Below are positions 35,872-44,683 of a stretch of DNA of 64,000 nucleotides, one piece after another. Within the stretch, counting starts at the first letter, position 1; each line of letters opens with the position of its first letter. This DNA is from Halobacteriovorax sp. (lineage in GTDB: Bacteria > Bdellovibrionota > Bacteriovoracia > Bacteriovoracales > Bacteriovoracaceae). The notes under the pieces are model-generated. The model searched no databases. It was not told where the DNA came from and worked only from the letters and a program-made list of their open reading frames with translations. The stretch is taken from positions 991,793 through 1,055,792 of the forward strand of contig PBIO01000014.1 in the NCBI GenBank assembly GCA_002720865.1, in the 5' to 3' direction. Both the position numbers and the translations under genes were made by a program.

Positions 35872-37482
35872 GTGAGAGTTTTTTTATTATTTTTACTATT
35901 TCTGGCTAGCTTTGAAGCGTTCTCTTGTGAGAAAGGAGTACAGGCCGTGGCAAGCGTTTGGAGCAAATTCTTTGGAAAAGCAGACGATGCTAAGGTCGTT
36001 GGAGCCAGTACTAGAGATATCAAAAAATATAAAAAGATAGTAAGCACCTCACCCGATAGTAAAAAAGCCTTGGCCTTACAAGAGAAAATTCTAAGTGACG
36101 ATGGAGTTTTAGATTTTTATAAAGGCCTTGATAAGTCTAATCAAAATGTGGTTCTTCGATTATCAACGAGTGACAATCCTGTAGATAAGAAAATTATAAA
36201 CTTTTTATCTAAGGCCGATAAAACGGAACTTAATAACTATATAAAAGAAATTCCTGGCCCAGGTATGGAGAGAATTAGGAATAAAGTATTATCAGGTTTT
36301 CCTGAAGATCAAATCCTAAAGGCCTTATCTCTTGAGGCCAAAGCATCAAGAATGTCACTCTATACTAAAATTTCTAAAGGAGAAGTGGAGTTGCTTAACT
36401 CTAATCTCTTTGCAAAAGTAGAAGTGGACCTTGGTCTGCCCGCCGGACTTCTAAAGACAGATGCAAGAGGAGTTCTTACCTTGGGAGATTTGAGTAAGGT
36501 TGATCCTAAGAAGTTAGATTCTCTTAGCGATTTTATTTCAAAATTTAATAAATTCAAATCGAATGTAAATTCCAATGACCTAGATAAGTTTTCAAAATAT
36601 GATGAACTTTTTGAAGTTTTGGGAATTCAAGATAAAGCTTTAAGACTCTCTTTAAAACAGAATGCCCTTGGGGACTTTGTTGTTCCAATGAGAAACTCTT
36701 GGGAAGTTCCAACTATTGTTGAACCTGTAGAGTCGATTTTAGGGGTAACTACTAAATACGATGGAACAAATTTGATAATAAAGGCCAAAGATGTACCGGA
36801 AGACCAATTAAGGGTTTTAGACAAAGCGATAAATGGGTTTAAAGAAACTCCAGATGCCTCGTTAAAATCTAAAACTTTGATTGAACAAGCTAGACAAAAG
36901 AAGTTTTTAGAGGCCTTTGAGTCACCACAATCCGTGAGAGAAAGTTTAGGTGTGAGAAAGGCATTAGCACCAACATCTGCTGATGACTTAAACTACCGAA
37001 TCCCACATTCGGATGCGCCAAAAGTTGGCTGGGAAAGAATAGATGTAACAAATGTTAATGGTAAAACCTCAGCTCTATCAGCAGATGAGATTAGCGAGGG
37101 TTACAAGAGAGTTATCTATAGAAATAATGGAGAGGGAAGATCAATAATTGAATTAAGAGACCCTAGTGGAAAAATTATTTCTCAAGAGATGATTGTCGCA
37201 AGAAATCCAAAAGACCCTGGTAAAGGAGTGGCCTTCTTTAGCTATGAAGATGGAAAACTCTCTAAAACATTTAGACCAAACCCTAGGGGAGGTCATATGG
37301 ATACGGGACATGGGTGTATGTCTTGTCATGGGGCCATGGAAAGAGCGACGGGTAAAATTATATCCTCATTCTTACCAAATGGAACAAAACGCTCACTGGG
37401 ATCTGTTCAGCATCCAACAGGAGAACTTCTTGATAAGGCCAATAGCAGTACAATTAAAGCCTTCGAGGAAGCTGCTAAATAG
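35872..37482 (+). CDS. Secreted protein with C-terminal CxxCH heme motif
   Basis: A 536-residue protein starting at GTG, with a signal peptide (residues 1-18, ending EAFSC). Most of the protein (residues about 30-400) is helical and of unknown family. Near residue 481 it has GHGCMSCHGAMERATG, a CxxCH c-type heme-attachment site, preceded by RPNPRGGHMDTGHG whose His or Met could be the second ligand. The region around the motif (residues about 380-530) begins with IPHSDAPKVGWERIDVTNVNG and looks like a separate domain. A single heme at the end of a long secreted protein is unusual. It is convergent with the OsmC-YcaO gene (8-base overlap). Confidence 0.75.
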   Translation: MRVFLLFLLFLASFEAFSCEKGVQAVASVWSKFFGKADDAKVVGASTRDIKKYKKIVSTSPDSKKALALQEKILSDDGVLDFYKGLDKSNQNVVLRLSTSDNPVDKKIINFLSKADKTELNNYIKEIPGPGMERIRNKVLSGFPEDQILKALSLEAKASRMSLYTKISKGEVELLNSNLFAKVEVDLGLPAGLLKTDARGVLTLGDLSKVDPKKLDSLSDFISKFNKFKSNVNSNDLDKFSKYDELFEVLGIQDKALRLSLKQNALGDFVVPMRNSWEVPTIVEPVESILGVTTKYDGTNLIIKAKDVPEDQLRVLDKAINGFKETPDASLKSKTLIEQARQKKFLEAFESPQSVRESLGVRKALAPTSADDLNYRIPHSDAPKVGWERIDVTNVNGKTSALSADEISEGYKRVIYRNNGEGRSIIELRDPSGKIISQEMIVARNPKDPGKGVAFFSYEDGKLSKTFRPNPRGGHMDTGHGCMSCHGAMERATGKIISSFLPNGTKRSLGSVQHPTGELLDKANSSTIKAFEEAAK

Positions 37483-40178: not shown

Positions 40179-40601
40179 TTAAAAGTAAGTATTCACAATA
40201 TCCAAGGTAATCCCTTGGTCTCCGAAGTGATCGGCATGAAAGATTTCAATAGCTTGCATTTGATTTTTTTTGATCAACGCGCAAGTTTCATCTTTTATTG
40301 TGACCAGTGAATAGTTCATTTTATTAGCCTCTGTTAAAGACTCAATTGGTTTTACGTCACCAAATGCGGAGGCGAGTAGGCTCGCGGCCACATGACTTCC
40401 TGAGGATTCATTTTTTGGGATCAGTTTTTTAGCTTCTTCAAAATTTGAATCATCAATGGGAATAATTTTAAGACCCTCTTTTTCTAAGGTAAAACCATAG
40501 GGACAGTGAAGGCACTTAGTTTTACAACAGGAGCCTCTATTGCGTAGAAACTTAGAGGTTTTTACATCAAGGCCATCTTTTCTATATGTGAGCTCATCCA
40601 T
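40179..40601 (-). CDS. Cys-rich protein with DUF5522-like motif
   Basis: A 140-residue cytoplasmic protein, last gene of the five-gene lipid operon. RNRGSCCKTKCLHCPYGF (residues about 21-38) has five Cys in the order CC-x3-C-x2-C and resembles the DUF5522 pattern (G-x-C-C-x-x-x-C-x-H-C-P-Y). The remaining part is unlike that family. It begins with the TAATG overlap of the acyltransferase stop. It may bind a metal or an iron-sulfur cluster and serve as redox partner or regulator of the P450 or desaturase; this is inference. Confidence 0.65.
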   Translation of the reverse strand: MDELTYRKDGLDVKTSKFLRNRGSCCKTKCLHCPYGFTLEKEGLKIIPIDDSNFEEAKKLIPKNESSGSHVAASLLASAFGDVKPIESLTEANKMNYSLVTIKDETCALIKKNQMQAIEIFHADHFGDQGITLDIVNTYF

Positions 40602-41716
40602 TAATAATTACCTTTTAAGAATCGATCAATCATCTTTTCCTTAACCACAAAGTGAAAAATTAAGGTGGAACCAATAAGGCTTGTGATTGTTACAAGGGGA
40701 AACTTTATCATCCAATTCATATCAATTCGATTAAAAATGATATGAAGAACTATAATAATTGGCAGGTGTATTAAATAGACAAAATAAGAAGCATCTACAA
40801 AATAACTAATACTTTTATTGGGCTTATTAAAATAATTTTTAAACGAGTAGATAGTTCCTAGCACCATTGTCCATGTGGCCAGCCCTCCCATTAAATTCAA
40901 AATCCAAATAGGAAGATTATGACCTGCAAAACCTAGATGAGTATCAACTTCCAGGTAGGCCCTTAAAGTTGCAAAGCCAACTCCCGCTGCAAGTAAGGCG
41001 AGGGAGGCTGTTTTAGATAAGCTATGCTCTTTAAAATTAAAGAGCTTCCAGCCAAAGAAAAAGAAAGTCCCATAGTAGGTGAATAGTGAAATCATAGGAT
41101 ACATCTTAAAGGGCTGATCAACCCAATGGGATTTCATTAAAAAGAGGCTAAGAAAACTTGCTGAAAAACAAATAAGTATTAAAAGTGAATACCTTGGAAT
41201 TTTGAAATTGATTAAATTTCTTAAAGGAACACTGATTAATGAAAAGACGTATAAATACATAAGGAACCAGAGATGTCCCCAATTTGGAGGATGTCTAAAT
41301 TTCTCCTCTGTGGCAGGGGCGAAGAAGTTCTCCATGCCGTATTGAATGAGAAAAGGAAAATCAAGAGCGTAGAGCTTATCTGGAACTTCCATCAAGACCC
41401 AGGCCATTTTGAGAGGAACGATTAGGAGAATAAAGAAAACCAGTAAGGGGTAAAGCAGTCTTCGAGTTCTTTTTTGAAGGAACAAACCACTATCAATTGT
41501 AAGCGCGGTAAAGAAACCACTGATCACGAAAAATAAGGGCATTCTAAAGAGTCTAAGAAAATCTAATCCAATATCAATTAAGTATGAATGGCTTGGGTCT
41601 TTTAAAACCCAGTGATACTCAATTTGTCCGTAGGCCAAACAGGCATGGAGGGGAATTCCCAGCAACATGGCAATGGCCCTTAGATAATCAAAGTAGTGAT
41701 ATCTAACTTTATTCAT
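40601..41716 (-). CDS. Acyltransferase-3 family membrane protein (OpgC-like)
   Basis: A 371-residue inner-membrane protein with about ten membrane segments. The N-terminus YFDYLRAIAMLLGIPLHACLAYGQ contains the D-x-x-R-A and the catalytic His of the acyl_transf_3 family. FFVISGFFTALTIDSGLFLQKRTRRLLYPLLVF is the next signature, and NWGHLWFLMYLYVFSLISVPL is the third. Such proteins O-acylate glycans or lipid headgroups. I chose ATG 41716, which overlaps the previous stop by ATGA. The partner genes suggest a fatty-acyl or isoprenoid-lipid substrate. Confidence 0.85.
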   Translation of the reverse strand: MNKVRYHYFDYLRAIAMLLGIPLHACLAYGQIEYHWVLKDPSHSYLIDIGLDFLRLFRMPLFFVISGFFTALTIDSGLFLQKRTRRLLYPLLVFFILLIVPLKMAWVLMEVPDKLYALDFPFLIQYGMENFFAPATEEKFRHPPNWGHLWFLMYLYVFSLISVPLRNLINFKIPRYSLLILICFSASFLSLFLMKSHWVDQPFKMYPMISLFTYYGTFFFFGWKLFNFKEHSLSKTASLALLAAGVGFATLRAYLEVDTHLGFAGHNLPIWILNLMGGLATWTMVLGTIYSFKNYFNKPNKSISYFVDASYFVYLIHLPIIIVLHIIFNRIDMNWMIKFPLVTITSLIGSTLIFHFVVKEKMIDRFLKGNY

Positions 41717-42321
41717 AGGGCCTGCACCAAGGTGAAAAGATGAATCCATAGGAAAATATTTAAAAGTTCGGCCACCCAGGGCTTTAGAAAAAGTGTACTA
41801 AACATGATTAAAAAACCATAGGTAACTAAGTTATAACCAATTGTGGGACTAGTTCCCACATAGATAAATGTAGCCCCTAAAACAAATGAAGAGAGGACTA
41901 TGAAAATGCCTCCGTACAGATCTTTTTTTTCGTCACCAAAGAAATGAAGGATCAGCCAAAGAAGAATTGAGACTGCGGTTAGAATATTGAAGAGCAAAGC
42001 CTTTTCCGGAAGTATGCTTATGGCCAAGTGAAATCTAACAACTATGGCCAAGGCAAAACTTACGACAGAGAAAGTTATCAAAGTTGAGGGCTCAAAGTAT
42101 TTAACTTGAAAGTTTCCTTCCTCAACAGCTCTTTTATTTTCCCATGCAAAAAATATTTGACCTACCCCTTCAAACATAAAGAGTAGGAGAAAATGAACCT
42201 GATCTTTCATAAGAAAAGCTAGAATGATGAAGACAATGGCGGATAGTGCTTGGAAGAGTGCCGTTAGCTCCTTTCCTTTTTTTCCATATGAACGTTTATA
42301 GATTGTCTCCATCAAACTCAT
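41713..42321 (-). CDS. Membrane protein of unknown family
   Basis: A 202-residue inner-membrane protein with about six membrane segments (for example ALSAIVFIILAFLM, LITFSVVSFALAIVV and FNILTAVSILLWLIL). There is no signal peptide. It overlaps both neighbours through ATGA, so its production is tied to the P450 upstream and the acyltransferase downstream. No family is recognised. It may present or transport the lipid handled by the operon, or serve as an electron-transfer partner; the latter has no sequence support (no heme or Cys motifs). Confidence 0.7.
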   Translation of the reverse strand: MSLMETIYKRSYGKKGKELTALFQALSAIVFIILAFLMKDQVHFLLLFMFEGVGQIFFAWENKRAVEEGNFQVKYFEPSTLITFSVVSFALAIVVRFHLAISILPEKALLFNILTAVSILLWLILHFFGDEKKDLYGGIFIVLSSFVLGATFIYVGTSPTIGYNLVTYGFLIMFSTLFLKPWVAELLNIFLWIHLFTLVQAL

Positions 42322-43700
42322 GCTTCAATCCTTGTAAGCTTAATTGGCATACCATTTTCTGGCTTAAGGCTCACATGAGAAACGGCTCTCGGAAGAGAAG
42401 TTCCTTCAAGTTCAAGCTTATAGCTTTTTAAAACTTCAGATACAATGATGGCCACCTCAATCAACGAGAAGTTTTCTCCGACACATCTTCTTTCACCTTT
42501 TGAAAAAGGAAGGTAGTGATCTAATCTATTAACTTCAACACCTTCAAATCTTTTAGGGTTAAAACGAAGAGCGTCGTCCCAGTGTTTTTCACTTCGGTGG
42601 ATATTCCAAACGGGGATAACAATACTGGTTCCTTTTGGAACTTTGTATTCCCCAAATTGATCATCTTCTAAATTCTTTCTAGAGGACATGGGAATGGTGG
42701 TATAAAGCCTAATACCTTCGACAATGGCACGGTAGAGTTTAGGATGCGAGTTTTTAAAATTGATGGAGGTAATCTCTTCAGCGTTTCTAAGCTCTTCTCT
42801 TAATTCATCCTGAATATCAATATGATTTGCAAGAAGCCCGAAGATCCAGGCCAAGGAATTTGAAGTTGTTTCATAACCGGCAATCAATAAAGTTATCACT
42901 TCGTCCTTTAATTCACGGTCACTAAGGCCTTCTCCAGTATCTGGATTCTTAGCGTATACAAGTCTTTGTAAAATACTTTTGGCCTTAGCCTCATCTGAAT
43001 GAGCTTTTTCTTGGTTTAATAATCTTTTAACAATTGAAGAGAGGTTATTATTATGACGATGAAACTCTCTATTCTTTTTCGTTGGTACCCAGTAGGGAAG
43101 TGGAAAAAGCTCGAACATATGATCATGGGCCATTTTTGAAGTATAGAGGACGGCCTCATCCACTATTCTGGCGTCTTCTTCCGTTAAATCAGAACCTAGG
43201 AGCGTTTTTCCGGCTATGGCAAAAGTTAAGTTTCTCATCTCTAGTGAGAAGTCTAAATTAGAGGATCCGTTTTCTTTCCAGCTATTAATTCTCTTTTTAG
43301 TTAGCTCGTATATTATCCTTGAAAATCCCGTTATCGCAGCAGGACCAAGCTCTTTAGAAACTATGACTCTACTTCTAAGCCAAGATTTTCGATCATTATT
43401 AGTAACAAGGCCATTGCCCATGACAACTTTCATTTCGTCTGTTTGAGCACCTTTTACGTAGATCTTTCTTTTATCACCAAGGACCTGCTTAATAAGTTTT
43501 GTATCGTAAATTATGATGGTATTGATGGGCCAACCGTAGCTGGCAATAGTTCCGAATTTTTTTTCGGTTTCTTCTAATGCACCTAAACTATCTCTTTTAA
43601 AATGAAACATGAGCTTTACGAACTCAAGTCCTCTCGGTCCAGGGATATGCCTTATACCGGAGAGGCTAAAAGAGTTTCTTAAGTTTTTAAAAAATGGCAT
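42318..43700 (-). CDS. Cytochrome P450
   Basis: A 460-residue P450. The heme ligand motif is LPFSKGERRCVGENFSLIEVA with the Cys of FSKGERRCVG, the I-helix oxygen-activating motif is LLIAGYETTSNSL (A-G-x-E-T-T), the K-helix E-x-x-R is EGIRLY, and the PERF-like region is FNPKRFEG. The length and the N-terminal proline motif (IPGPRGLEFVKL) resemble CYP4/CYP102-like fatty-acid hydroxylases. It overlaps the desaturase stop through TAATG at 43700, which decides the start. It probably hydroxylates a long-chain acyl substrate; the electron donor is not encoded here. Confidence 0.9.
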   Translation of the reverse strand: MPFFKNLRNSFSLSGIRHIPGPRGLEFVKLMFHFKRDSLGALEETEKKFGTIASYGWPINTIIIYDTKLIKQVLGDKRKIYVKGAQTDEMKVVMGNGLVTNNDRKSWLRSRVIVSKELGPAAITGFSRIIYELTKKRINSWKENGSSNLDFSLEMRNLTFAIAGKTLLGSDLTEEDARIVDEAVLYTSKMAHDHMFELFPLPYWVPTKKNREFHRHNNNLSSIVKRLLNQEKAHSDEAKAKSILQRLVYAKNPDTGEGLSDRELKDEVITLLIAGYETTSNSLAWIFGLLANHIDIQDELREELRNAEEITSINFKNSHPKLYRAIVEGIRLYTTIPMSSRKNLEDDQFGEYKVPKGTSIVIPVWNIHRSEKHWDDALRFNPKRFEGVEVNRLDHYLPFSKGERRCVGENFSLIEVAIIVSEVLKSYKLELEGTSLPRAVSHVSLKPENGMPIKLTRIEA

Positions 43701-44605
43701 TAATGCGAGCCCTTTTCTCCCCATACCTGGTCAAGGTTGAAGTACTGACGTAATGAGGAAGTATCACTAGATAATTCTACATGAGATACGGTCCTATTGG
43801 TAATAGGTTTTAAAGTCAGTAGGCGCTCTTTTTGATTATTCAGCTTTCTTGGGTCGAAAAGACTCAAGTTTTGGTGATGATTTTTATGGTAGTACCCGCC
43901 CATGGTCACAAAGTTGGCAAACTTATAATAAAGATTATGATCCATATTAAAAACTTCGACGGAGCCATCTTCTAAGTCCCTATGACAGACATAATTGATA
44001 TGAGCAAGAATAGCTATATTACTTAGAACTGCAGGTAGATAAAAGAAGAGAAAAAGACCAGGTCCAAAAATTAAACACCAGCAAACTAGTCTTAGAATCA
44101 TATTCATATGAAAGACTAGGGTTTGTTGATCAAGAATTCTTTCATAGTTCTCGGTTTTAGAATGAATATCCCTTAAGTATTCTTTGGTATGCTCAATCAT
44201 GTATTTATTCGGAGAAATAAAATAACGAAAAAAGCTCATTCCCCTGGGAGAAACCGGGTCATACTTATGATCAGAATATAAATGATGAAGAGTATGAACC
44301 ATTATAAAATTATTAAAGCCGTAGCCAACAAAATGCCCGACAAATTCACCGATAATTCTATTAACTGGTCCCTTGGTCACATTCTGATGTCCGGCCTTAT
44401 GTAAAAAGGCGGCCACTAACCAGCCCGCTGGAATAGCGATAACAAAACTTAAAAAATAATACCAATGGAGCTCTAAACTTAGTTCAGATCTTAAAAGAAG
44501 AAGCCCGCCTAAAAGAAGGCTTAAAAAGAGAAAGTCTCTTATATAATCCTTAAGCAAAAAATAAGGATCTTCCTTAATATTTTTAAAAACCTGAGCTGGT
44601 GCCAT
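43700..44605 (-). CDS. Fatty acid desaturase family protein
   Basis: A 301-residue membrane enzyme with four or more membrane segments and the three His boxes of FA_desaturase: AFLHKAGHQN, VHTLHHLYSDHKYD and YYHKNHHQNLS, which bind the di-iron centre. It should insert double bonds or a related oxidation into fatty-acyl or carotenoid-like substrates. It is the first of five overlapping genes (TAATG to the P450). A TTAGAC-17-TATAAT promoter starts about 43 bases upstream; a second -10 (TAAAAT) lies 7 bases before the ATG. Confidence 0.88.
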   Translation of the reverse strand: MAPAQVFKNIKEDPYFLLKDYIRDFLFLSLLLGGLLLLRSELSLELHWYYFLSFVIAIPAGWLVAAFLHKAGHQNVTKGPVNRIIGEFVGHFVGYGFNNFIMVHTLHHLYSDHKYDPVSPRGMSFFRYFISPNKYMIEHTKEYLRDIHSKTENYERILDQQTLVFHMNMILRLVCWCLIFGPGLFLFFYLPAVLSNIAILAHINYVCHRDLEDGSVEVFNMDHNLYYKFANFVTMGGYYHKNHHQNLSLFDPRKLNNQKERLLTLKPITNRTVSHVELSSDTSSLRQYFNLDQVWGEKGSH

Positions 44606-44654: not shown

Positions 44655-44683
44655 ATTATAGGCTGCCATGTAAGGCCGTCTAA
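44655..44683 (-). promoter_or_regulatory. Promoter of the desaturase-P450-acyltransferase operon
   Basis: Minus strand: TTAGAC (44678-44683), 17 bases, perfect TATAAT (44655-44660), with a leader of about 43 bases to ATG 44605. It lies between the fbp stop and the desaturase start. Confidence 0.7.

Follow-up and report, generated by a model that had tools for sequence, protein, structure and literature searches.

A 64,000-nucleotide stretch of the genome of Halobacteriovorax sp. (contig PBIO01000014.1), which we call the window, carries at 40179-44605 five open reading frames (ORFs) on the minus strand, coding in order for a desaturase-like protein of 301 residues, a cytochrome P450 (P450) of 460-468, a membrane protein of 202, an acyltransferase-3 protein of 371-382 and a DUF5522 protein of 140 residues. 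An earlier note on this DNA had described them as a possible lipid-tailoring operon; all five ORFs are present where it placed them, the overlaps that it gave (TAATG, ATGA, ATGA and TAATG) match exactly at all four junctions, and the layout of the locus supports an operon-like unit with lipid-type oxygenases. The first three junctions recur in genomes G037 and G038, the fourth in G037 only. Since the ratios of nonsynonymous to synonymous differences (pN/pS) against G037, the nearest relative, are 0.09, 0.10, 0.15, 0.14 and 0.25 in gene order, all five are real genes maintained under purifying selection. The host genome measures 4.9 Mb with a completeness of 100, and its closest relatives by locus are Halobacteriovorax and Bacteriovorax. 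The operon is thus real, but the earlier reading set its boundary too wide and its function too exactly: the unit conserved among relatives is the desaturase and the P450 only.

Conservation was assessed in a family set of 129 Bacteriovoracaceae-type genomes (searches at order and class level gave the same 129) and in a phylum set of 369, made up of these and 240 others. The P450 subfamily was delimited at a score of at least 378 bits (next score 234) and occurs in 14 of the 129 family genomes, while the desaturase subfamily, delimited at at least 401 bits (next 257), comprises 16 proteins in 15 of them. Both are found together in 14 family genomes and are adjacent in 14/14, a count which includes shared descent and so does not represent 14 independent events. 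The pairing is strict: only G001 has the desaturase without the P450, and no family genome has the P450 without the desaturase. The pair runs head-to-tail in six genomes, with the arrangement of the window in G000, G037, G038, G050 and G013 and with other neighbours in G104, and is convergent in eight (G002, G012, G048, G049, G053, G054, G086 and G117), in some with overlapping ends. Because G086 and G104, which are sisters in the tree, differ in the orientation of the pair with adjacency kept, adjacency has outlived a rearrangement. Desaturase and P450 distances are correlated (Mantel r 0.85, p 0.0001; non-operon group 0.70, p 0.001). Outside the family, the 240 other phylum genomes gave only distant desaturases of at most 168 bits and no member of the subfamily, and a scan of 84,980 species genomes, which relied on a pair of peptide patterns and could miss near copies, had matches in records of the host lineage only. 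Conservation of the genes together in relatives, to which the earlier note had tied its pathway, therefore holds for the pair but not for the full set of five: the 202-residue protein occurs in 5 of the 369 phylum genomes, each time beside the pair, 4 genomes have an acyltransferase orthologue adjoining the pair, and DUF5522 is separable. Cumulatively, we consider it very probable that the desaturase and the P450 form a functional unit. A further copy of the desaturase subfamily (L073:1660-2685) was seen in G013, a genome with 9% contamination, next to a divergent helix-turn-helix (HTH) regulator on a 3.1 kb contig without a P450.

The desaturase belongs to the membrane desaturase superfamily (PF00487, 51 bits against a cut-off of 29.7). 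The three His boxes attributed to it are present and invariant in 16 homologues, in which the conserved ligand-type residues are HxxxH (69, 73), HxxHH (104, 107, 108), NxxxH (204, 208) and HxxHH (240, 243, 244). Six PF00487 loci exceed the cut-off in the host genome and, as the operon desaturase scores lowest of the six, it is unlikely to be a general or housekeeping enzyme. Its subfamily forms a supported clade of its own (98/97) in a tree with two long outgroup branches, the root of which is not trustworthy. No sequence match to solved desaturases was detectable, and an AlphaFold2 model was of moderate quality, with a predicted local distance difference test (pLDDT) score of 74. The P450 is a clear member of PF00067 (235 bits against a cut-off of 22.8) and the only P450 found in the host genome. 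It contains both AGYETTSN and FSKGERRCVG, the motifs named earlier, whose residues are largely invariant across relatives; the I-helix acid/alcohol pair E285 and T286, E336/R339 (ExxR) and the heme ligand C414 are invariant in 14 homologues. By profile, its nearest named solved relatives are CYP97A3 (206 bits) and then CYP102A (about 185 bits).

Features of the desaturase-P450 locus in the window
Feature	Position	Strand	Remarks
desaturase-like membrane di-iron enzyme, short, 301 aa	43700..44605	-	PF00487; core gene 1
cytochrome P450, 460 aa from the TAATG start; ORF readable from 43724	42318..43700	-	PF00067; core gene 2
202-aa protein, 7 predicted transmembrane helices, without known family	41713..42321	-	accessory, Halobacteriovorax-like version only
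acyltransferase-3 membrane protein, R-X10-H motif, probable capping enzyme	40601..41716	-	PF01757
DUF5522 protein, overlaps acyltransferase stop, probably outside the pathway	40179..40601	-	PF17653
likely -10 element TATAAT of the operon	44655..44660	-	gap after fructose-bisphosphatase gene

The probable start positions, which the earlier note implied, are 43700 for the P450 and 41716 for the acyltransferase. Of the TTAGAC-17-TATAAT promoter proposed there, the -10 element stands, with TATAAA at equal distance in G037, but the -35 element is weak and unconserved, TTAGAC agreeing with TTGACA at 2/6 positions. As sites of such quality are common in the region (36 observed against 28.4 +/- 5.4 in shuffles), the promoter is plausible but unproven.

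The genes around the pair are exchanged between relatives. The seven-helix protein (5 genomes) and the acyltransferase (4) belong to the Halobacteriovorax-like version of the locus; elsewhere the pair adjoins an alpha/beta-hydrolase (G002, G012, G053, G054), a GT1 glycosyltransferase of the macrolide type (G048, G049) or an XRE-like HTH regulator (G086, G104, G117), the last also being present at the second desaturase copy in G013. The 202-residue protein has no match in Pfam or NCBIfam; AlphaFold2 predicted seven long helices (pLDDT 90.3), and a fold search returned only non-significant seven-helix matches. The acyltransferase is a member of PF01757 (119 bits against a cut-off of 31), its R-X10-H motif being read directly as FDYLRAIAMLLGIPLH, and we give even odds that it acylates the product of the pair. 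Its next relative, 45% identical, is found in G119, where it adjoins two paralogous short desaturases in tandem. The fifth gene, described earlier as coding for a Cys-rich protein, is a real ORF of a known Pfam family (DUF5522, PF17653, 43 bits) with the weakest constraint of the five. In G000 and G037 it comes next after the acyltransferase; in G038 about 3.2 kb, with opposite-strand genes, separates it from the unit, and near the pair in G050 and G013 it was not seen. Since it is separable in this way, we rejected it as a core member and do not count it in the pathway. An OsmC-YcaO protein (TIGR03549; 37475-39679, minus strand) adjoins the operon in the host and G037, lies upstream in G038 and is nearby in G050; although four related genomes have it close to the pair, it was rejected as a member in view of its shifting position and housekeeping annotation. 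A 536-residue protein of the window (35872-37482, plus strand) ends in a region with a heme-binding-like CMSCH motif, has no Pfam match, and is not beside the pair elsewhere.

Paralogous tandem desaturases, which form clades separate from the pair desaturase, have comparable company. They stand next to GT2 proteins in L088, L167, L168 and L171 and next to an acyltransferase of the operon's subfamily in L160, with a distant acyltransferase in L169, and G087 unites a P450, two desaturases, a hydrolase and an AurF-like protein. What recurs is a di-iron enzyme that modifies a chain, together with an oxygenase and an enzyme for making or breaking esters or glycosides, and this gene company suggests that the oxygen function of the product would then be capped or released. 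A four-gene operon of an AurF-like oxygenase (PF11583), an alpha/beta-hydrolase and two short PF00487 desaturases (L161-L166, L169, L170, L174) is present in many Bacteriovoracaceae and is apparently another uncharacterised lipid-oxidation cluster. On contig C9 of the host (L087:7166-9748), tandem short desaturases are followed by a 340-residue protein without a Pfam match, which is also found beside tandem desaturases in G087 and G088.

We propose that the operon represents, in its Halobacteriovorax-like form, an oxidation module of two enzymes acting on one fatty-acyl or other lipid chain, with exchangeable satellites finishing the product, and we put the probability of this reading at roughly 0.55. 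In its favour stand the strict pairing, the supported desaturase clade and its correlation with P450 distances, satellites that work on or next to oxygen functions, the ligand pattern of the desaturase, the profile relatives of the P450, the low rank of this desaturase among the PF00487 loci of the host and the purifying selection on all genes. As to common substrate, order of steps and product chemistry, the short di-iron desaturase and the P450 would share one chain, into which the desaturase would most likely introduce a double bond and the P450 a hydroxyl (or epoxide). Because neither core gene has a partner gene beside it, electrons for both would be supplied by general cellular redox partners. 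In the host the acyltransferase-3 protein would probably esterify the new hydroxyl, with the seven-helix protein as a membrane accessory, and in relatives a glycosyltransferase or alpha/beta-hydrolase would take the place of the acyltransferase. Several points weigh against this proposal. The closest solved P450, judged by profile, is a carotene hydroxylase, CYP97A3. The best fold match of the modeled desaturase, mouse SCD1, is weak and not significant (E 0.3), and as PF00487 also contains hydroxylases, ketolases and acetylenases, "desaturase" is to be taken as a family name only. Acyltransferase-3 proteins also modify glycans, and within a single bacterial family part of the linkage may be due to common ancestry.

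Other substrates were weighed against the gene content of the carriers. With CYP97A3 as top solved relative of the P450, weak CrtW/CrtR matches for the desaturase and a paralogue, and glycosyltransferases resembling HpnB/CruG beside paralogous desaturases, the pair might be thought to tailor carotenoids or hopanoids, combining a CrtW/CrtR-like ketolase or hydroxylase with a P450 carotene hydroxylase. Phytoene/squalene synthase (PF00494), however, was found neither in the host genome nor in 13/14 carriers, though the same search detected it in 16 of the 129 family genomes (15 non-carriers and the carrier G104) and in 7/14 control genomes, which makes carotenoids, hopanoids and sterols unlikely substrates. 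As, in addition, the CrtW model gave the desaturase only 17.6 bits against a cut-off of 350, a carotenoid ketolase/hydroxylase pathway (CrtW/CrtR, CYP97) was ruled out, and tailoring of this kind appears highly improbable. Sphingolipid tailoring, to which we attach barely more credence, is brought to mind by the phosphonate sphingolipids (sphingophosphonolipids) reported for Bacteriovorax stolpii (PMC6148460). The host itself encodes, away from the pair, a protein with PF08557 (Lipid_DES) and PF00487 resembling sphingolipid delta-4 desaturase (L144, contig C17 238096-238773) and a serine palmitoyltransferase (SPT)-like enzyme (contig C31 148023), so that sphingolipid synthesis in this bacterium is possible. 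Yet SPT-type enzymes are common in family genomes that lack the pair, and no strong SPT match was obtained in the carriers G012, G086, G104 and G117; as the occurrence of SPT relatives does not follow that of the pair, this substrate was rejected. This leaves as substrate a fatty-acyl or similar chain, whether free, activated or part of a lipid, and the pair probably does act on a fatty chain. An envelope lipid as the product, put forward in the earlier note, is a guess.

Oxidation of a fatty chain could also serve other ends. The pair may make a specialised metabolite instead of a membrane lipid: an oxidised fatty acid, similar to an oxylipin or an acetylene, that is secreted, is finished by the hydrolase, glycosyltransferase or acyltransferase and perhaps acts on prey or competitors. 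Such a role would agree with the patchy distribution within genera, the exchange of satellites, the XRE-like regulator adjoining the pair in several genomes and the macrolide-type GT1, and polyyne clusters also join PF00487 desaturases with a thioesterase and, in some, a P450 (PMC8406139). We nevertheless regard it as unlikely: the 25 commonest families listed for 148 neighbours at the 14 loci include neither a fatty acyl-AMP ligase nor an acyl carrier protein nor a rubredoxin, the cluster has one desaturase, and there is no recurring dedicated exporter. More doubtful still is a role on the uptake side, in which the pair would oxidise hydrophobic molecules that are foreign or come from prey, either to use or to detoxify them. 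The hosts are predators, and P450s and membrane di-iron enzymes often initiate the degradation of alkanes and fatty acids, but the recurring families listed for the neighbourhoods include none of beta-oxidation, acyl-CoA ligases or alcohol/aldehyde dehydrogenases, and capping enzymes such as an acyltransferase or a glycosyltransferase suit synthesis better.

The two-enzyme oxidation module, as we prefer to read the locus, is made of known kinds of enzymes in a combination which appears to be undescribed. In the open-licence literature we found no described system with the gene set of the operon, in agreement with the earlier note, and nothing relevant on a P450-desaturase pair in these bacteria. 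It is possible, although this broader view is tentative, that predatory Bacteriovoracaceae make undescribed, lineage-specific oxidised lipids or fatty-acid metabolites, built by a short-desaturase core with a P450 or, in the paralogous clusters, an AurF-like di-iron oxygenase and finished by acylation, glycosylation or hydrolysis according to species. As lipids and small molecules peculiar to predatory bacteria are little known, the tightly linked pair offers a direct handle on them. It is carried by Bacteriovorax sp. BSW11_IV and DB6_IX, apparently cultured strains in which the product can be sought, and the exchange of satellites suggests a modular pathway, the chemistry of which could be compared between species.

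The locus can be compared with several known systems. Polyyne and alkyne clusters contain a fatty acyl-AMP ligase, an acyl carrier protein and a desaturase, plus two more desaturases, a thioesterase and a rubredoxin (PMC8406139). The JamABC-type, caryoynencin and protegencin clusters among them share with the pair locus their PF00487 desaturases and, in some, a P450, but the locus has a single desaturase, and its identity as such a cluster was ruled out by the lack of a ligase, carrier protein or rubredoxin among the 25 commonest neighbouring families. OpgC/MdoC is the best NCBIfam relative of the operon acyltransferase and the two have the R-X10-H motif in common, but at 117 bits against an equivalog cut-off of 338 a succinyltransferase of periplasmic glucans was ruled out, and the operon enzyme keeps company with desaturases rather than glucan synthesis genes. 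The P450 is likened by profile to CYP97A3 (LUT5) and CYP102A (P450 BM3), both of which hydroxylate long hydrophobic chains or rings. It differs from the former in a host genome without a carotenoid pathway and from the latter in matching the heme domain only, and the missing C-terminal diflavin reductase rules out a self-sufficient CYP102. With SCD1 and the acyl-lipid delta-9 desaturases, the operon desaturase shares the three His boxes, NxxxH, membrane helices and a DPxxP-type stretch past box 2, and we take its ligand pattern to resemble the stearoyl-CoA desaturase set with box 1 one residue shorter. It departs from the SCD1 type in being short, in having HxxxH instead of HxxxxH as box 1, and in belonging to a lineage-specific clade that nearly always adjoins a P450.

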